From NCBI GenBank assembly GCA_903830425.1, contig CAIKTR010000132.1, positions 1 through 46,216 on the forward strand: DNA of 46,216 nt. The letters run 5' to 3'. The position numbers and the translations under genes were made by a program. Each line of letters starts with the position of its first letter. Position 1 is the stretch's first letter. Below are positions 4,154-33,004 of this stretch, in pieces. The stretch comes from an uncultured Opitutia bacterium. Its GTDB lineage: Bacteria > Verrucomicrobiota > Verrucomicrobiia > Opitutales > Opitutaceae. The notes beneath the pieces are model-generated. The model was not told the origin of the DNA. It was given only the letters and a program-made list of their open reading frames with translations, and made no database searches.

Positions 4154-6709
4154 ATGACGGATACGAAACTCACCCCGATGATGCAGCAGTACTTCGAGGT
4201 GCGCCGCGGCCTGCCGCGCGACACGCTCCTGCTGTTCCGCCTGGGGGATTTCTTCGAGCTGTTCTTCGACGACGCGGTGGTGGCCTCGCGCCTGCTCGGC
4301 CTGACCCTCACCCGGCGCCAGGAGCATCCGATGGCCGGCATCCCGGCGCAGGCCTGCGACACCTACGTCACCAAGCTCCTCGCCGCCGGCAAGAAGGTCG
4401 CGATCTGCGACCAGGCCGAGGCCGCCCAGCCCGGCCGGCTCGTGAAGCGCCAGCTCACCCGGATCCTGTCGCCCGGCACCACCCTCTCAGCCAACCAGCT
4501 CGACGCCGCCCGCAACCACTACCTCTGCGCCCTCGCCCTGGACGCACAGGGCCTGCACGCCGCCTGGCTCGACCTGTCGACCGGCGAGTTCCGGATCGCA
4601 AGCGACGCCCACCCCGCGAACCTCCTGCCCGTCCTGACCGCACTCGACCCGGCCGAGCTGCTCGTGACCGAGGGCGAGCTCGCCCGCTGGGCGGCGGCCC
4701 CGCACGAGCAGGCCGCGGTGCATGCGCTGCAGGCCTTCTGCGCCGCGCGCCTGTGCACGGAGCTGTCGGGCTACCATTTTGACACGGCCACGGGCGCCAA
4801 GACGGTGATGGACACCCTCGGGGTGCTCAACCTGCAGGGCTTCGGGCTCGCCCCGAGCCATGCGGCGCTCGGGCCCGCCGGCGCGCTGGTCTATTACGCG
4901 ACCGAGAACCTCTGCGCCAAGCCCGAGAACCTGCGCGGGCTCCAGGAGTACCGCAGCACCCGCACGCTTCTGCTGGACCCCGCCACCCTGCGCAACCTGG
5001 AGATCTTCGCCTCCACCCAGGGCGGCCGGACAGGCTCCCTGCTCAGCGCCATCAACCGCACCACCACGTCCATCGGGGCCCGGCTGCTTGAGCGCTGGCT
5101 GGCCGCGCCCACCCTCGACCTGCCCGAGATCAACCGCCGCCAGGCGCTGGTCGGCGAGCTGCTCGCCCAGCCCTCCCGCCTGGCCGAACTGCGCGAACAA
5201 CTGGCCTCCGGGCGCGACCTCACCCGCATCCTCGGCCGGCTCCAGAACCGCCTCCGCAATCCCCGCGAGCTGGGCGGCATCCGCGACACCCTCGTCCAGC
5301 TGCCCGCGCTGCGCTCGGGCCTGGCCGCCTATGGCGGGGAGCTGGGCGCGGGTTATCTGCCGCGCCTGGCCGAACTGCCCGCGCTGCGCGCGCTCCTGAC
5401 CCAGGCCCTGGCCGACGAGCTCCCCAACGACCTCGCCGACGGCAACTACATCCGCCCCGGCCACGACGCCGAGCTCGACCGCCTCCGCGCCCTCACGAGC
5501 GACAACAAGACCTGGCTGTCCGCGCTCGAGCGCACCGAGCAGGAACGCACCGGCATCCGGAGCCTGAAGGTCCGGTTCACGAATCATTTCGGGTACTATA
5601 TCGAGATCACCAAGGCCAACCTGCACCTCGTGCCGGCCGACTACGTGCGGCGCCAGACCACCGTCGGCGGCGAGCGCTACGTCACCGAGGAGCTGAAGCT
5701 GAAGGAAAAGGAGATCTTCCACGCCGAGGAGAACGCCCTGGCGCGCGAGCTGGAGCTCTTCCACCGGCTGGTCGCGGCCATTCTGGACGAGTCCCTGGTG
5801 CTGGCGCACACCGCCGACGCCCTGGCCGAACTCGATGTCCTCGCCGGCTGGGCGGTGCTGGCGCGGGAATGGGACTACTGCCGCCCGGTGCTCGACGAGG
5901 GCGAGGGGCTGGAGATTGCCGAGGGCCGCCACCCGGTCGTCGAGCAGATGCTCAAGGCCCCGGACGCCGCCCTCGCCCGCGGGACCAGCCCGGCCTTCGT
6001 GCCCAACGACACCGCGCTGGACTGCGCCGACACCCAGATCGCCCTCCTCACCGGCCCGAACATGGCCGGCAAGTCCACTTACATCCGCCAGGTCGCGCTC
6101 ATCACCCTGCTCGCCCAGGTCGGCTGCTGGGTGCCGGCCAAGTCCTGCCGCCTCGGGCTCGTCGACCGCATCTTCTCCCGGGTCGGGGCCAACGACGACC
6201 TCGCCCGCGGCAACTCGACCTTCATGGTCGAGATGACCGAGACCGCCAACATCCTCAACAACGCCACCACCCGCTCGCTGATCATCCTCGACGAGATCGG
6301 CCGCGGCACCTCCACCTACGACGGCCTGGCCATCGCGTGGTCCGTCGTCGAGCACCTGCACCGCGAGCCGGAGCGCGGCCCGCGCACGCTGTTCGCCACG
6401 CACTACCAGGAGCTGACCCAGCTCGACCGGCACCTGCCCCGCCTGCGCAACTTCTCGGTGGCGGTGAAGGAGTGGCAGGACGACATCGTCTTCGTCCGCC
6501 GCGTCGTGCCCGGGGCCGCCGACCGCAGCTACGGCATCCAGGTGGCCCGGCTGGCCGGCCTGCCGCTCAGCGTGATCGACCGCGCCAAGACCATCCTCCG
6601 CCAGCTCGAAAGCGACGAGAGCAGCGTGACCGTCGCGGCGCCGCAGGCCCGGCCGAAGAAAAAGATCACGGTCGTGCCGGCGGACGACTCGCAGCTAAAC
6701 CTGCTCTAG
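4154..6709 (+). CDS. mutS: DNA mismatch repair ATPase MutS
   Basis: An 851-residue MutS, nearly the length of the E. coli protein (853). It recognises mismatches and small loops and recruits MutL. The mismatch-reading Phe-x-Glu motif is present as GDFFELF (Phe33, Glu35). The connector, core lever and clamp regions follow. The ATPase domain has Walker A GPNMAGKST at 634-642, Walker B with Asp713-Glu714 in IILDEIGRGTSTYDG, and the conserved FATHYQEL. The C-terminus ends with a short basic stretch and the LDE-type tail is absent. The ATG at 4154 opens directly into the conserved N-terminal domain. There is no Shine-Dalgarno sequence; the leader is C/T-rich. No mutL is in the window. Confidence 0.97.
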   Translation: MTDTKLTPMMQQYFEVRRGLPRDTLLLFRLGDFFELFFDDAVVASRLLGLTLTRRQEHPMAGIPAQACDTYVTKLLAAGKKVAICDQAEAAQPGRLVKRQLTRILSPGTTLSANQLDAARNHYLCALALDAQGLHAAWLDLSTGEFRIASDAHPANLLPVLTALDPAELLVTEGELARWAAAPHEQAAVHALQAFCAARLCTELSGYHFDTATGAKTVMDTLGVLNLQGFGLAPSHAALGPAGALVYYATENLCAKPENLRGLQEYRSTRTLLLDPATLRNLEIFASTQGGRTGSLLSAINRTTTSIGARLLERWLAAPTLDLPEINRRQALVGELLAQPSRLAELREQLASGRDLTRILGRLQNRLRNPRELGGIRDTLVQLPALRSGLAAYGGELGAGYLPRLAELPALRALLTQALADELPNDLADGNYIRPGHDAELDRLRALTSDNKTWLSALERTEQERTGIRSLKVRFTNHFGYYIEITKANLHLVPADYVRRQTTVGGERYVTEELKLKEKEIFHAEENALARELELFHRLVAAILDESLVLAHTADALAELDVLAGWAVLAREWDYCRPVLDEGEGLEIAEGRHPVVEQMLKAPDAALARGTSPAFVPNDTALDCADTQIALLTGPNMAGKSTYIRQVALITLLAQVGCWVPAKSCRLGLVDRIFSRVGANDDLARGNSTFMVEMTETANILNNATTRSLIILDEIGRGTSTYDGLAIAWSVVEHLHREPERGPRTLFATHYQELTQLDRHLPRLRNFSVAVKEWQDDIVFVRRVVPGAADRSYGIQVARLAGLPLSVIDRAKTILRQLESDESSVTVAAPQARPKKKITVVPADDSQLNLL

Positions 6710-25544: not shown

Positions 25545-26627
25545 ATGCCTGACTCCGCCCCCACCCCGCCCGGTGATGCCCCGCCCGGGCCGCACGTGCG
25601 GCGGGTGCGTTATGCCGGCAAGCATCCCCGGCGCTTCGCGGACAAATACAAGGAGCTCCAGCCGGAGCGCTACGCCGCCGACGTGGCCAAGGTGCTGGCG
25701 TCGGGCAAGACGCCGGCCGGCACGCACCGGCCCATCCTGGTGGCGGAGATCCTCGGGGTGCTGGCGCTCCGGCCGGGCGAGCTCGCGGTCGACTGCACGC
25801 TCGGTTTCGGCGGGCACGCCCAGGCCATGCTGGCGCGCCTCGCCCCGGATGGCCGGCTGATCGGGCTGGATGTCGACCCGGTCGAGCACCCCAAGACCAC
25901 CGCCCGCCTGCGCGCGGCCGGCTGGGGCGAGGCGGCCTTCACCGCGGTCCGCTCCAACTTCGCCGCCCTGCCCGCCGTGCTGGCGTCGCTCGGTCTCGAC
26001 GGGGCGGACGCGATCCTCGCCGATCTCGGGGTCTCCTCCATGCAACTCGACGATCCCGCGCGCGGCTTCACCTTCAAGACCGACTGTCCGCTCGACCTGC
26101 GCCTGAACCCGTCCCGCCCGCCGTCGGCGGCCGAGTGGCTCGCGCGGGTGTCCCCGGACACGCTCGCCGCCGCCCTGCACGACCACGCCGACGAGCCCGA
26201 CGCCGCGGCGCTGGCCCGCGGGCTGGTGGCGCGCCGTGCGGACACACCCTTCACGCGGACGCTGCAACTCGCCTCGGCCATCCGGGACCTGCGCGCGGCG
26301 CACCGTCCCCGCCGCGATCCGGCGGAGGACGACGACTGCGTGCGCCGGGTGTTCCAGGCCATCCGCATCGCGGTGAACGACGAATTCGGCACGCTCGAGC
26401 TCTTCCTGCGGCGGCTGCCGTCCTGCCTGCGCGCCGGCGGGCGCGTGGCGATCCTCACGTTCCATTCCGGCGAGGACCGGCGGGTGAAGCAGGCGTTGCG
26501 GGAGGGGGTGCGCGCCGGGATCTACGCGTCCGCCAGCGAGGAGGTCGGGCGCGCCGGACCGGAGGAGCGCCGCGACAATCCCCGCAGCTCGTCGGCCAAG
26601 CTGCGCTGGGCGGTGCGCGCGGGCTAG
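25545..26627 (+). CDS. rsmH: RsmH-like 16S rRNA (cytosine-N4) methyltransferase with N-terminal extension
   Basis: A 360-residue homologue of RsmH/MraW, which methylates N4 of C1402 in 16S rRNA. The core begins with HRPILVAEIL at 61 and has the SAM loop VDCTLGFGGH (82-91), GLDVDP, ILADLGVSSMQLDDPARGF and the end NPRSSSAKLR. Two features are odd. About 54 residues precede the core, including a conserved-looking basic stretch RRFADKYKELQPERY. The usual FHSLEDR is FHSGEDR (306-312). The gene is not next to mur/fts genes where rsmH normally sits, so it may be a second paralogue with another rRNA target. Its TAG overlaps the stop of the convergent isomerase-like gene. Confidence 0.8.
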   Translation: MPDSAPTPPGDAPPGPHVRRVRYAGKHPRRFADKYKELQPERYAADVAKVLASGKTPAGTHRPILVAEILGVLALRPGELAVDCTLGFGGHAQAMLARLAPDGRLIGLDVDPVEHPKTTARLRAAGWGEAAFTAVRSNFAALPAVLASLGLDGADAILADLGVSSMQLDDPARGFTFKTDCPLDLRLNPSRPPSAAEWLARVSPDTLAAALHDHADEPDAAALARGLVARRADTPFTRTLQLASAIRDLRAAHRPRRDPAEDDDCVRRVFQAIRIAVNDEFGTLELFLRRLPSCLRAGGRVAILTFHSGEDRRVKQALREGVRAGIYASASEEVGRAGPEERRDNPRSSSAKLRWAVRAG

Positions 26628-27661
26628 CAGCCGAGCAGGTGCTCGATCACCAGCTGGTCGAGGTCCTGGTAGTTGCGGTCCGCGATCAGGGCGGCGGCCT
26701 GCTGCTTCGGGTAGCTGCGGGCCTTGGCGACGAGGTGCAGGAAGGTCTTCCGGGAATTGTCGAGGTGCCGGAGATAGTGCTCCTCCCGGGTGGTGCGGAA
26801 CGGATGCACGTCAAAGGCGACGTACTCGCCGCGGCGGCCGTAGCCGTTGCGCTCGAGGGCGCAGACCTGATTGAAGGCGCTGCGGAGATTGGCCGAGCCA
26901 AACGGCTTGTCCTGGTCGTACTTGAGCCCGTTCTGGTCGTTGAGGTGGAGCGACCAGAGCTTGCCGAACGCCATCGCGAAATCGATCTCGTCCGCCGGGT
27001 CCAGGCCCGCGAGGACGGAGTGGGCCGACTCAATCAGGCAGCCGACGCGCTGCGGGGCGCGGGTGAGCTGGGCGATGGCCAGCGCGTGGCCGATCGTCGG
27101 CAGGTAGGCGTGGTCCATCGGCTCGTTCGGCTTGGGCTCGATGCAGAGCCGGGCCTGACGGTCGTGCGCCAGCAGCGCGTCGAGCGCCTCCACGAGCAAG
27201 GCGGTGGAGCGCGCCCCGGACTTGGACTCGCGCACGTAGGTGCCCTCGCGCGCCAGCCAGAGCACGATCAGGTCGGTGCCCAGCACCCGGGCGATGTCGA
27301 GCGTCTGCTTCGAGCGGTCGAGCGCATAGCGGCGGTCCGCCGCCCGGTTGGAGGTGAAGCCGCCGTCCACGGTCTGCGGGGCGAACCAGAGCCGGGGCGC
27401 GACCAGCTCGGCGACGATCCCGGCGTCGTCGAGCTTCCGCCGCAGGGCCTTCGCCTCCTTGAGCACCTGCGCGGACGACTTGGTGTCGATGTCCGGCACG
27501 GCGTCGTCGTCGTGAAACATCATGGCGTCGAACCCGAGCTGCTTGAGGGCGGCGAGCTTCCAGTCGAAGGACTGGGGCAGCCGCGTCTCGGGACCATACG
27601 GATCACGGCCCTCGCTGAAATTCCAGGGGCCGGCGCAAAAACGGTAGGTGGTTTTGGACAT
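26624..27661 (-). CDS. Xylose-isomerase-like TIM-barrel sugar isomerase
   Basis: A 345-residue protein of the XylA fold. Active-site elements of class I (Streptomyces-type) xylose isomerase are recognisable: His50 and Asp53 in FHDDDAVPD, Glu175 and Lys177 in IEPKPNEP, Glu211 and His214 in ESAHSVLAG, Asp249 and Asp251 in KYDQD, and Asp284 in AFDVHP. The metal-ligand position Asp245 of the Streptomyces enzyme is His239 here (LHLNDQNG), a HLND motif also seen in RhaI-type L-rhamnose isomerases. It is also about 40 residues shorter than typical class I enzymes. An aldose-ketose isomerase is likely; whether it uses xylose, rhamnose or another sugar is open. xylB lies downstream on the same strand beyond icd and rsmH. 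Confidence 0.78.
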   Translation of the reverse strand: MSKTTYRFCAGPWNFSEGRDPYGPETRLPQSFDWKLAALKQLGFDAMMFHDDDAVPDIDTKSSAQVLKEAKALRRKLDDAGIVAELVAPRLWFAPQTVDGGFTSNRAADRRYALDRSKQTLDIARVLGTDLIVLWLAREGTYVRESKSGARSTALLVEALDALLAHDRQARLCIEPKPNEPMDHAYLPTIGHALAIAQLTRAPQRVGCLIESAHSVLAGLDPADEIDFAMAFGKLWSLHLNDQNGLKYDQDKPFGSANLRSAFNQVCALERNGYGRRGEYVAFDVHPFRTTREEHYLRHLDNSRKTFLHLVAKARSYPKQQAAALIADRNYQDLDQLVIEHLLGC

Positions 27662-27733
27662 GGGGGTGGCGGTCAAGCTAGGGGCTAGGGGCGCGGGGCG
27701 GAAGCGGAAAACACCGGCGGCGCGGACCGCGCG

Positions 27734-29689
27734 TCAGCGCCGCACCCGGGCGTAGGCCTCCTGCACGGCGGTCAGCGCAGGTTTGGGATGGAAGGGATAC
27801 GCGATGTAGGCCGGGGAAATTTGGGGCCAGCAGTCGGACAGACTCCAGAGGAAGATGCCCCAGCAGCCGGGCTGACCGGCGTAGAGTTCGATCCAGAAGC
27901 GGGAGGCCTCGGCGTGGAGCTGCTGGCTCTTCGCGATCAGGTCGTCGAGGGACGTCGGCTCCGGCCAGCCCCGCGCCTCGATGCTCTGCCAGAGGGTCCG
28001 CAGCAGGCCGCGCCGGTCCAGCCGGGTGCAGTCCGAGCCGTGCGTGAGGTAGGACTCGTTCCAGATGGGCCAGCGCTGGTCCGGCGGCACGAAGCGCTCG
28101 ATCACCGCCAGGTCCGGCATGCCCATGTGCCCGATCTCGGTCACCATCCGCGGCTCCTGGCCCACGTAGAGCTCGGCCCGGTAGGACTGGCCGTGGGCCC
28201 AGAGGTGGCAGTCACCCTCCCGCGGCGAGTTCTGGTCGTACACCCCGGGGGAAAAGGGCGAGGTCGGCACATAGGGCGTGAGCGGCGCATGGGCCCGCAC
28301 GACGTCGCGCAGGACCTCCTTGCTCAGCCGGTTGTGGCGGTAGGCCGGGTAGTTGAAGCTGGTGTCGGCCAGCACGTCGTTCTCGTTGTCGCCAAACCAG
28401 ACGACGACGCTTGCAAAGTGCCGCAGCCGCCGCACCTGAAACTCCGCCTCGCGGCGCGCCTCGTCGAGAAACTCCGGGTCCTGGGGATAACAGCCGCAGG
28501 CGAACATGAAGTCGTGGGTGACGAGCAGGCCGAGTTCGTCGCACCGGGCATAGAAGGAATCGTGCTCGTAGATGCCGCCGCCCCAGACGCGCAGGGCGTT
28601 GATGTTGGCCCCCCGGGTCGCCTGCAGGAGCTCATGGTAACGCGCGTCGTCGATCCGCGCGTAGATCGCATCCACCGGCGTCCAATTCATGCCCTTGAGA
28701 AAAATTTTACGCCCGTTCACCGCCACGATGAACGACGTGGTTCCGTCCGCCGCGGGCTCCTGAATGAGGTCCACCGTGCGGATGCCGAAGCGGCCGCTCC
28801 GCTGGTCCAGGGTCGACCCGGCGCGGCGCAGGACCGCAGTCCACGCATACAGGGGTTGTGCGCCGTGGTCGTGCGGCCACCACAGCTTGGCCTGGGGCAC
28901 GGTGAAGCGCTCCACGTGGCGGTCGCCGGCCGGGTCGCCCGGCAGCGTCAGCCGGCGGGTCTGGCCGGCGACGGTCAGCTCGAGCTCGACCGGCCCGGGC
29001 GCGCCGTGGTTGTGCTGCAGCTCGATCCGGGCCTCCAGTTCGGCGGTGCCGTCCGCCGCCAGCGCCACCGTGCTCACATACACGTCGGCGATCTCCGCGG
29101 GCTCGACCAGCAGCCAGGACACGGGTTTCCAAATCCCGATCGTGACCAGTCGCGGCGTGATGTTCCACCCGTAGCAGGACTGGGCCTTGCGCACCTGCAG
29201 GCGCAGCGGCGAGCCATAGCCCCGCACCTCGGGCGAGGGCTGGCGGCCCGGCGGCGTCACCGGCGAACCGAGGCAGACCTCGAGCCGGTTCGTCCCCGGC
29301 TGCACGCCATCCGTCACATCCAGCCGGAGGGGGGTGAACATGTTGCGGTGCCGCCCCACTTCCCGCCCGTTGAGGTAGACCGTGGCAAAGACATCCAGCC
29401 CCTCGAAGCACAGGTGCAGCCGCTGCCCCGGACCGGGCGCCGGCGGAACGAGGTCGGTGCGATACCACCAGTCCCACTCCTCCATCCACCGGCAATGGTC
29501 GTGGTTGGTGCCGTAAAACGGGTCCGCAATCAGTCCGGCGCGCTCATAGTCGAGGTGCACGTCGCCGGGCACCTGGGCCGGCACCCAGCGCTCCGCGAGG
29601 GGCAGGGCTGAGCAGGCCACGGTCGCGCCCAGCCAGGGCTCGGCATGCATCACGTTCCACTCGCATGGCAGCGGCAGGGTTTGCTTCAT
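27734..29689 (-). CDS. GH2 beta-mannosidase, short form
   Basis: A 651-residue family 2 glycosidase of the beta-mannosidase subgroup. The N-terminal jelly roll contains VPGDVHLDYERAGLIADPFYG and the WYRTDL and FEGLDVFATVYLNG motifs. An Ig-like domain and TIM barrel follow (KGMNWTPVDAIYAR, LRVWGGGIYEHDSFY). The acid/base is Glu436 in VVWFGDNEND and the nucleophile Glu518 in MVTEIGHMG; WSLSDCWPQISPA near the end is the family's barrel-closing motif. Typical members run past 800 residues with one or two C-terminal beta domains; this one stops right after the barrel. No signal peptide, so it probably acts inside the cell on imported mannosides. Confidence 0.85.
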   Translation of the reverse strand: MKQTLPLPCEWNVMHAEPWLGATVACSALPLAERWVPAQVPGDVHLDYERAGLIADPFYGTNHDHCRWMEEWDWWYRTDLVPPAPGPGQRLHLCFEGLDVFATVYLNGREVGRHRNMFTPLRLDVTDGVQPGTNRLEVCLGSPVTPPGRQPSPEVRGYGSPLRLQVRKAQSCYGWNITPRLVTIGIWKPVSWLLVEPAEIADVYVSTVALAADGTAELEARIELQHNHGAPGPVELELTVAGQTRRLTLPGDPAGDRHVERFTVPQAKLWWPHDHGAQPLYAWTAVLRRAGSTLDQRSGRFGIRTVDLIQEPAADGTTSFIVAVNGRKIFLKGMNWTPVDAIYARIDDARYHELLQATRGANINALRVWGGGIYEHDSFYARCDELGLLVTHDFMFACGCYPQDPEFLDEARREAEFQVRRLRHFASVVVWFGDNENDVLADTSFNYPAYRHNRLSKEVLRDVVRAHAPLTPYVPTSPFSPGVYDQNSPREGDCHLWAHGQSYRAELYVGQEPRMVTEIGHMGMPDLAVIERFVPPDQRWPIWNESYLTHGSDCTRLDRRGLLRTLWQSIEARGWPEPTSLDDLIAKSQQLHAEASRFWIELYAGQPGCWGIFLWSLSDCWPQISPAYIAYPFHPKPALTAVQEAYARVRR

Positions 29690-30679: not shown

Positions 30680-31849
30680 TCAGGTCACCCGATCCAACAG
30701 CCGGACGCTGGCGGCCAGAACGATGATGCCGAGGACGAGCACCCAGGGGATGCCGGCCAGCGAATACTGCGCCAGCCAGCCGGCCGCGGCGGGCAGCAGG
30801 GCTCCGCCGAGATAAGACGCGCCCGACTGCCGGCCGATCACGGTGAGCGTGGCGTCCGGCGCGAACCGCCGCGGGACCTCGTGCATCAGGCAGGGATAGG
30901 CCGGAGCAAAACCCAGCCCGAGCAGGACCAACGCACCGGCGTTCAGCCAGGGTGTCGTGGCGCAGGCAAAGAGTCCCGCGCCGAGCAGCGCGACCAGCAG
31001 CCCGAGGGCGACCACCCGGCGGTTGTCCCCGTCCTTCACGACAAAACCGACGAGGATGCGGCCGCCGGTGATCGCGCCGTAGTAGGCCGCGGTGCACAGG
31101 GCGGCGGTATCCGGCGCCACCCCCCGCCCCACCACCAGGATCGAGCCGGCCCAGAGCCCGGCGGTGGATTCCACCGCCACATACAGCGCGAAAATCACGG
31201 GCGACAGCCAGCCGGCAAAGGAGTTGGCCGGCCGCGTCGGCCGACCGTCAGGCGCGTCCGCCGCCGCGGCGTGCCGGGCCTGCTCAGGTGCAGTCGCCCA
31301 CAGCCGCAGCGTGACCAGGAACAGCAGCGCGAGCAGCACCTGCAGGCCCCCCAGAGCCAGGTAACCCGCGCGCCACCCCCGGTGGGAGCCGAGCGCGTAG
31401 CTCATGAACAGCGGACCGCACGTGGCGCCCACGCCCCAGCACGCGTGCAGCCAGTTCATGTGCCGTCCGCTGTAGTGCCGCGCCACATAGCCATTGAGGC
31501 CGGCGTCAACCGCCCCCGCCCCCACCCCCAGCGGCAGGGCGGCCGCCAGCAGCCAAACCAGACTGGAGGCCTGGGAAACGATCAACAGCGCCCCGCCGGT
31601 GAGCAGGCAGCTCATGAATACGACCGGACCCGTGTGGAACCGGGCGATGATGCGGCCGCTGAGAAAGCCCGAAAGCCCGGAGAGCAGCGTGACGACGATC
31701 GTGATCGTGCCGGCCAGCCCGATGGGCAGGTGCAGCTCAGGATAAATTGCCGGCCACGCCACGCCGAAGGTTCCGTCGGGCAGCCCCAGACTGATGAAGC
31801 CCAGATAGATGATCAGGAGCAGGGCGAAGGCGGGCGGGCGGAAACGCAC
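30680..31849 (-). CDS. MFS transporter, fucose-permease (FucP) like
   Basis: A major facilitator superfamily protein of 389 residues with about 12 hydrophobic segments. The sequence (LLLIIYLGFISLGLPDGTFG, GVGAGAVDAGLNGYVARHY, NWLHACWGVGATCGP) matches the FucP/COG0738 group, which imports fucose, glucose or other sugars with protons. The start is probably GTG at 31849; a TTG at 31861 is the other choice. It lies 105 bases downstream of the URO-D-like gene on the same strand, suggesting a shared transcript. The substrate is not predictable, but the glycosidases nearby make a sugar likely. Confidence 0.82.
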   Translation of the reverse strand: MRFRPPAFALLLIIYLGFISLGLPDGTFGVAWPAIYPELHLPIGLAGTITIVVTLLSGLSGFLSGRIIARFHTGPVVFMSCLLTGGALLIVSQASSLVWLLAAALPLGVGAGAVDAGLNGYVARHYSGRHMNWLHACWGVGATCGPLFMSYALGSHRGWRAGYLALGGLQVLLALLFLVTLRLWATAPEQARHAAAADAPDGRPTRPANSFAGWLSPVIFALYVAVESTAGLWAGSILVVGRGVAPDTAALCTAAYYGAITGGRILVGFVVKDGDNRRVVALGLLVALLGAGLFACATTPWLNAGALVLLGLGFAPAYPCLMHEVPRRFAPDATLTVIGRQSGASYLGGALLPAAAGWLAQYSLAGIPWVLVLGIIVLAASVRLLDRVT

Positions 31850-31954
31850 CGGCTCAACCAAACACTTGCCGCGACGCTGGCAAGGCTCCCGCCGTCGGGC
31901 GCAGCCGCGTGCCTTGCAACTCGGCCGGACCTCCCCGCGGCGGTCAGCGACGCC

Positions 31955-33004
31955 TCACCGGCTCGCGCGGCGGATCTTGGCCAGGATCGACTTGGCCCCG
32001 GCCAGGTCCTTGGCCTCGGTCTGGATGACCATGCGCGCATGCGGCGGCAAATGGCGCGGCCACTGCCAGGGCGGAATCTTGGCATCCCAGAAGCCGTGGT
32101 GCTGGCCGGTGCTCTCGGCAAAGGCGTGGTAGGCGGCCTTGATCACGTCGGGCGGCTGGCAGATATTGAGCATGCGCAGATTGCGGATGCGCTTGAAATT
32201 ATCCCACTGGTGGCGCGAGTTGGCGCAGCAGTGAATCCCGATGCCGCCGTAGCGGTCGGAGAGCGCCTGCAGCTCCGGCAGAAAAAACTCGCAGAACATG
32301 TCGGGGTTGACCGCCCCGACCTCGTCTTCCGAAAGCGTCACGCCGCGCGGCATGTAATAATACGGGAAGTGCGCGATGAACTCGCAGCCGTAGCGGCGGT
32401 ACCACTCGTCGAGGAACGCCGTGAACAGCGTGTGCACCTTCGCGGCGAGGTGCTTCACCGCGTCCGGGGCCTCGAGCATCGCGCTGAACAGCTCCGTCTT
32501 GTCCCAAAGCAGCGCCACCGTGTCCATCGGGCTCTGCGTGTCCACGAGCTTCATCACCGCGTCCGGCCCGGCCCGCCGCCGGAGCTCGTCCGCGATGTCG
32601 AACAGCTCGGCGAGCGGGGAGGAGCTCAGCTCCGGGACCTTGATCCGGTCGGCCTCGGCCGGGGTCGTGATCCGCGGCAGGGCGAAGGGCATGTTGTCCG
32701 CCGGCCGGTGCACCGCGCAGCCGAAGGCCTCGGCGAAAATCTCCGTGCCGGTATAGGGGTCAAGGTACGGGATGAAGTCGTCGTCCAGCACCGCGGCGCG
32801 GCGCAGGTCGCGCTGGTAGCCCTGCCAGGCCCAGTCGATGCGCGCCGCCTGCTGGTCATGGTTGGGCCAGGGGCGCGGCGGGGCGGCCGGGTCGGTGATG
32901 CCGAGCAGGACCATGCAGCGCGCGTCGGGCTTGCCGGCATAAAAATCGAGCCAGCGCTGCTTGCGCTGGGCCAGACACGGGGCGGGGTTCGCGGCGGGGG
33001 GCAT
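31955..33004 (-). CDS. Uroporphyrinogen-decarboxylase-fold protein with HxC...C motif
   Basis: A 349-residue URO-D superfamily member. It is not a haem-pathway HemE, whose N-terminal arginine motifs are missing. Near the C-terminus, GIGIHCCANSRHQW gives His258-x-Cys260 and Cys282 follows in NICQPP. That arrangement recalls the His-x-Cys...Cys zinc site of corrinoid:thiol methyltransferases such as MtaA and MtbA. A methyl-transfer role is therefore possible, though no corrinoid protein is nearby. Such proteins are common near sugar-degradation genes in Verrucomicrobiota and Planctomycetota, and here it precedes a FucP-like permease. It is divergent from the POT-like transporter across 181 bases. 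Confidence 0.75.
   Translation of the reverse strand: MPPAANPAPCLAQRKQRWLDFYAGKPDARCMVLLGITDPAAPPRPWPNHDQQAARIDWAWQGYQRDLRRAAVLDDDFIPYLDPYTGTEIFAEAFGCAVHRPADNMPFALPRITTPAEADRIKVPELSSSPLAELFDIADELRRRAGPDAVMKLVDTQSPMDTVALLWDKTELFSAMLEAPDAVKHLAAKVHTLFTAFLDEWYRRYGCEFIAHFPYYYMPRGVTLSEDEVGAVNPDMFCEFFLPELQALSDRYGGIGIHCCANSRHQWDNFKRIRNLRMLNICQPPDVIKAAYHAFAESTGQHHGFWDAKIPPWQWPRHLPPHARMVIQTEAKDLAGAKSILAKIRRASR

Follow-up and report, generated by a model that had tools for sequence, protein, structure and literature searches.

A URO-D-superfamily protein with a conserved His-Cys-Cys motif in an uncultured Opitutia bacterium: a candidate corrinoid-linked methyltransferase

The range of methylated compounds open to an anaerobe is set by its URO-D-fold methyltransferases, and to our knowledge few of their substrates are known. 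Among the described members of the URO-D superfamily are MtvB, MtoB and CdmB, the type I methyltransferases of O-demethylase and chloromethane systems. In the available text of two papers, such systems comprise a type I enzyme, a corrinoid protein, a second methyltransferase and an activase, often in many paralogues, and the logic of MtoB and CdmB is that the type I enzyme brings the methylated substrate up to the Co(I) of a small corrinoid protein (PMC8630106, PMC13222342). CdmB is described, in the accessible part of the source, as working without zinc and as having human UroD as its closest structural homologue (PMC13222342). For MetE, the accessible portion of another paper gives His618, Cys620, Glu642 and Cys704 as zinc ligands, with the same set in MT2-A (PMC539065). 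Finally, MtaA (4ay7/4ay8) is a methylcobalamin:coenzyme M methyltransferase with the same TIM-barrel URO-D fold.

The gene studied here lies on the minus strand at 31955..33004 of the window (the whole stretch of DNA analysed, 46,216 nucleotides). In line with a sequence-only reading, which called the product a URO-D-fold protein, it is a 349 aa ORF with a URO-D match above the Pfam cut-off (E 6.8e-12, 45.5 bits against 23.9, residues 89-273); no NCBIfam model matched the protein at E <= 0.001. The pN/pS of 0.27-0.34 against four congeneric orthologues indicates that the gene is coding, conserved and under purifying selection. An earlier AF2 model from 5 near-identical orthologues had a pLDDT of 46.3, and a model from 30 sequences reached 94.3. 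In this latter model the protein is predicted to be a URO-D-type TIM barrel, and its best PDB matches (Foldseek, VIA-align 2) are HemE structures and MtaA. The match to 4ay7 (MtaA) has a Z of 20.2 and covers 293 residues at 13% identity in the structural alignment, and its rmsd of 3.4 is lower than that of any other of the top 23 structural matches; 4zr8 is tied with it in Z (20.3, rmsd 4.1 over 304 residues), and the highest TM-score, 0.67, is with 4ay8 (MtaA). Human and bacterial HemE structures share the fold at Z 18.5-20.3, and the C-terminal barrel of MetE is related to it at a Z of about 12. When the sequence alone was searched against the PDB with phmmer, the best E was 0.51. A common fold does not establish function.

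His258, Cys260 and Cys282 are found at the positions that the sequence-only reading gave them, and Cys259 between the first two completes a His258-Cys259-Cys260 (HCC) motif (32225..32233, minus). To follow these residues we used an alignment of 24 sequences (A3), comprising the query, 4 congeneric orthologues, 4 MAG proteins (labelled Defluviitaleaceae (2), Oscillospiraceae and Candidatus Flemingibacterium) and 15 sequences from other genomes of the phylum. His258 and Cys260 are invariant (24/24) and Cys259 is kept in 22 of 24; the motif aligns with HICG of 4ay7, so the proposed likeness of His-x-Cys to that of MtaA, at the same alignment position, is borne out. A second invariant pair (24/24) is Asp155-x-Gln157 (32534..32542, minus). 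Within the Ser225-Glu-Asp-Glu228 motif (32321..32332, minus), Asp227 is present in 23 of the 24 rows and Glu228 in 18, which are the 18 core rows; His212 likewise occurs in 18/24. The Pfam URO-D model matches 23 of the 24 members.

Orthologues were found in 5 of the 12 genomes of the genus that were searched, namely the query's own and 4 others at 76-79% identity. In a family sample of 150 genomes, 11 had any match at E <= 0.001, and strong matches were confined to the own genome and two congeners. Further away, relatives that are 42-45% identical over the alignment occur in MAGs labelled Defluviitaleaceae, Oscillospiraceae and Candidatus Flemingibacterium, and a MAG labelled Chloroflexi holds another (L066) with 50% identity in its best segment. 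In this Chloroflexi record a run of N around position 6700 masks the HCC motif, and the reading frame differs on the two sides of the run; L066 was omitted from all alignments for that reason. A search for further relatives in the families of the genomes G266 and G274 yielded one new sequence, L083, which was omitted from A3 and A4. In a FastTree phylogeny of 65 proteins rooted on HemE, with L071 left out and with a sampling that includes no characterised methyltransferase such as CdmB, MtvB or MtoB, 17 core members form one group (support 0.994) from which all 42 own-genome paralogues are excluded, and the core together with 6 outgroup relatives forms a group with a support of 0.856. No characterised member of this HCC clade was found in a non-exhaustive literature search.

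The genome as a whole is equipped for corrinoid chemistry. It is 3.5 Mb in 254 contigs and 95% complete, and it holds 46 URO-D matches, 12 of them on contig C55, and three B12-binding matches, all on contigs other than that of the query (C132). One of the three is a 1089-aa open frame of MetH size. A search for corrinoid proteins, which the sequence-only reading had proposed, turned up a 212-aa protein with both cap and B12 domains on C55, where DUF1638, RACo, a Pterin_bind protein, MTHFR with DUF5981, and FTHFS are also encoded, as well as an MFS protein and a homocysteine methyltransferase-MTHFR fusion. A 361-aa ORF between URO-D genes of this island (L014:14048-15130) had no Pfam match at E <= 0.001 and is possibly a diverged URO-D protein. 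The C55 genes look like a corrinoid methyl-transfer system that has type I and type II methyltransferases, an activase and tetrahydrofolate as the acceptor, the second methyltransferase being recognised by its Pterin_bind domain alone. The island's role could instead be methionine synthesis (PMC5764234, PMC12478193, both in the parts available), as the accessible text of the former has DUF1638 and a RamA-like protein serving methionine synthesis in Phaeobacter (PMC5764234), although the genome has the 1089-aa frame of MetH size as well.

In a sample of the phylum, RACo was present in 13 of 13 genomes carrying the query's subfamily (E <= 1e-20) compared with 105/288 overall (Fisher p 1.2e-6, or 3.3e-6 without the own genome, with URO-D copy number not controlled and the 13 genomes, which span nine families, not fully independent). 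This co-occurrence may merely reflect an anaerobic lifestyle that goes with many URO-D genes. URO-D copy number follows RACo in the genus, with 3-9 matches (E <= 1e-25) in each of the 9 RACo-bearing genomes and exactly 1 in each of the 3 that lack it; the chance of the three lowest counts coinciding in this manner is 1 in 220 if kinship is ignored. The link between the orthologue and RACo is not significant within the genus (5/5 versus 4/7, p 0.16), and the corrinoid lead has its support at the level of the whole genome alone. Together, the 46 URO-D matches and the corrinoid-to-formate gene set would make such Verrucomicrobiota candidates for anaerobic demethylation. Our literature search found nothing on point about a URO-D expansion in Verrucomicrobia, and a term search of the available main text of He et al. 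2017 on freshwater Verrucomicrobia found no words beginning corrinoid, methyltransferase or uroporphyrinogen (PMC5615132).

Given the predicted fold close to that of MtaA, a glycine (Gly86) in the column of the catalytic aspartate of HemE, the partner genes on C55 and the co-occurrence with RACo, the explanation that we put first, at about even chances of being right, is that the protein is a substrate-specific (type I) corrinoid-linked methyltransferase of the URO-D superfamily, belonging to the HCC-motif clade. Methyl transfer is favoured by indirect evidence, all of it at genome level. A methylated small molecule would be bound in the TIM barrel, and its methyl group would pass to Co(I) in the small corrinoid protein that the genome encodes. 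The pterin-binding protein would then move the methyl from the corrinoid protein to tetrahydrofolate, MTHFR and formate-tetrahydrofolate ligase would presumably carry it onward in this direction, and RACo would keep the cobalt reduced. In the predicted structure His258 and Cys260, with Cys259, Asp155, Gln157 and Asp227, would line an active site at the ends of the barrel strands; these residues may hold a metal, in which case they would do so with fewer ligands than the His/Cys/Glu/Cys set found in full in MetE and related enzymes. CdmB itself matches a profile of the wider alignment weakly (A4; E 0.0017, with no single stretch passing alone). Evidence against a corrinoid-linked type I enzyme is that, in contrast to MtvB, MtoB and CdmB, its gene is not beside that of a corrinoid protein: it stands alone on C132, the corrinoid protein is on C55, and no homologue of it was found in 19 stretches around orthologues and relatives.

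The same solitary setting is an argument for a second explanation, possible if somewhat unlikely, namely a URO-D-fold enzyme of some other chemistry (a lyase, decarboxylase or isomerase) in URO-D-rich anaerobes. The 19 stretches were searched by tblastn at 1e-4 with the corrinoid protein, RACo, pterin-binding protein, FTHFS and DUF1638 of C55 and with the window permease; the one match was a DUF1638 in L086, which its sister locus L087 does not have. In addition, the superfamily includes non-methyltransferases such as HemE, and two relatives (L066 and L062) lie in sugar or glycyl-radical gene strings. However, His-x-Cys is kept in every one of the 24 aligned sequences, and RACo accompanies the subfamily in all 13 genomes, both of which argue against another chemistry.

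A zinc enzyme similar to MtaA or MetE, moving methyl to or from a thiol at a zinc held by His258, Cys260 and Cys282, was proposed from the sequence and now seems improbable. In its favour are the invariant His258-x-Cys260 in the place of HICG in 4ay7, and the conservation of Cys282 (32159..32161, minus) throughout the five genus sequences, 22 residues past Cys260, which is the spacing from Cys620 to Glu642 in MetE (PMC539065, in the portion available). By this spacing Cys282 falls near the position of the exchangeable Glu and not at that of the second Cys. By alignment the acidic position is two residues away, at Asn280 (32165..32167, minus), a column in which 5 of the 6 outgroup rows have Asp or Glu. 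Where MtaA-type proteins have an acidic residue, the query has Asn280 or Cys282. Against the zinc site, Cys282 is lineage-specific: its column is Cys in 6 of 24 sequences (the five of the genus, query included, and L065), and V, T, N, I, M, H, D or A in the other 18, including L069 and also L068, which is 54% identical to the query and has Ile. The second zinc-type Cys near the C-terminus, a feature of MtaA and MtbA, is absent as well, its column being Ala331 in the query (32012..32014, minus) and Cys in 1/24 (L064). This column was located in A4, an alignment of the A3 type with MtaA-type paralogues from the same genome added. We aligned 42 of the 45 other URO-D matches of the genome, leaving out three fragments of <300 aa, and by eye 4 of the 42 carry His-x-Cys with a later Cys, indicating that the alignment can reveal the full pattern where it is present.

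Cys282 is accordingly rejected as a conserved ligand and is not supported as the third ligand of an MtaA/MtbA site. The sequence-only reading had asked whether the three residues are conserved among close homologues: Cys282 is not conserved outside the genus, and His258 and Cys260 are. As judged from the alignments, the MtaA/MtbA motif as originally written does not apply to the query, which appears to keep half of the classical zinc site. MtaA and MetE differ from it in having the second Cys, and MetE also in having a second (folate) barrel; what the query has in common with MetE is His-x-Cys and the 22-residue spacing to the next ligand position. In the AF2 model (DSSP), strand 255-259 ends within the HCC motif, strand 276-281 directly before Cys282 and strand 324-331 at Ala331, and thus all three sites are predicted to sit at strand ends. 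The HCC clade, with its half of the classical zinc site, is a defined, testable group.

That the protein is the uroporphyrinogen decarboxylase of the haem pathway (HemE), as its Pfam match and the HemE structures among its best fold matches might suggest, is practically ruled out, because Gly86 (32747..32749, minus) occupies the column of the catalytic Asp86 of human HemE (profile alignment read by eye, the column located by ungapped counting from the Gly common to both at query position 95), no RQAGRY-like string is present and other residues stand at that place in the profile alignment with 6w2o, and a distinct HemE is encoded on contig C59 of the same genome (E 1.4e-114, 382.9 bits). The lack of the arginine segment of the haem pathway had been correctly recognised from the sequence.

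The gene 93 bp downstream on the same strand (30680..31861, minus) encodes an MFS permease (PF07690, 3e-27). It had been described as FucP-like, and the permease part of that description stands, with the FucP label weak (the matching NCBIfam transporter models score 20-33 bits, far under their cut-offs). Co-occurrence with sugar permeases had also been suggested as a check; a close homologue of this permease (E <= 1e-40) is found in 1 of 12 congeneric genomes, which is the own genome, and in none of the other 11. The 19 stretches (4 to 20 kb, tblastn 1e-4) likewise contain no match to it. A partnership is therefore rejected, and the permease is probably no more than a neighbour. At the four orthologous loci no window ORF of at least 100 aa has a match, apart from ones overlapping the query; two of these loci are short (4.2 and 8.9 kb), and at L056 the contig stops some 130 bases beyond the gene, which leaves that side out of view. 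At the three longer orthologue loci the gene lies by what we take, from reading the translations, to be pyrE, a degP-like gene and other housekeeping-type genes, and a metallo-beta-lactamase protein and an NAD-binding protein were identified there by Pfam. As a whole, the sequence-only reading rightly saw a non-haem URO-D protein whose His-x-Cys is of the zinc type, and the genome does carry a corrinoid protein; its view of Cys282 as a ligand and its permease link found no support. The interest of the locus lies in the HCC clade and the RACo-tied URO-D expansion rather than in a zinc motif.

A methylated-sugar substrate is possible, given that three relatives belong to compact gene strings with sugar, glycan or radical-enzyme genes. 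At L066, a SIS-domain gene is 24 bp upstream of the relative and is itself preceded by two ROK kinase genes, a weak sugar-epimerase match and an oxidoreductase gene. At L062 (5926-10111), the relative and a glycyl-radical enzyme have overlapping ORFs (first-ATG start), and the activase and a GH101-like gene come next; no named NCBIfam model matched this glycyl-radical enzyme at its cut-off. At L091 (5159-15614), the relative has a 4-base overlap with a beta-helix gene that matches GH141 weakly, and their strand also carries GH106, apiosidase-like and GH36 genes. GH genes are found at greater distance in L084, L086, L088 and L092, and it is our impression that the genomes of the relatives are rich in GH-type genes. 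The loci of the genus orthologues, as far as they were read, show no sugar or radical-enzyme setting. The sugar setting is a lead only, with methylated sugars as a possible substrate.

The gene string of L091 is reminiscent of rhamnogalacturonan II breakdown, and apiose and 2-O-methyl-fucose are sugars of rhamnogalacturonan II according to the accessible text of PMC12282258. A far-reaching and rather doubtful extension of the corrinoid-linked reading would make the HCC clade a group of new O-demethylases for methyl-ether sugars, for example 2-O-methyl-fucose released from rhamnogalacturonan II. The active-site metal set of these enzymes would be smaller than that of MtaA, and methyl groups taken from sugars would enter a route by way of tetrahydrofolate to formate, both in the phylum and in the Clostridia- and Chloroflexi-labelled relatives. 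Our search of the literature on corrinoid demethylation of sugars found nothing on point. In the window itself, on the query's strand, a xylose-isomerase-like TIM-barrel protein is encoded beside a GH2 protein (26624-29689), a possible sugar gene pair.
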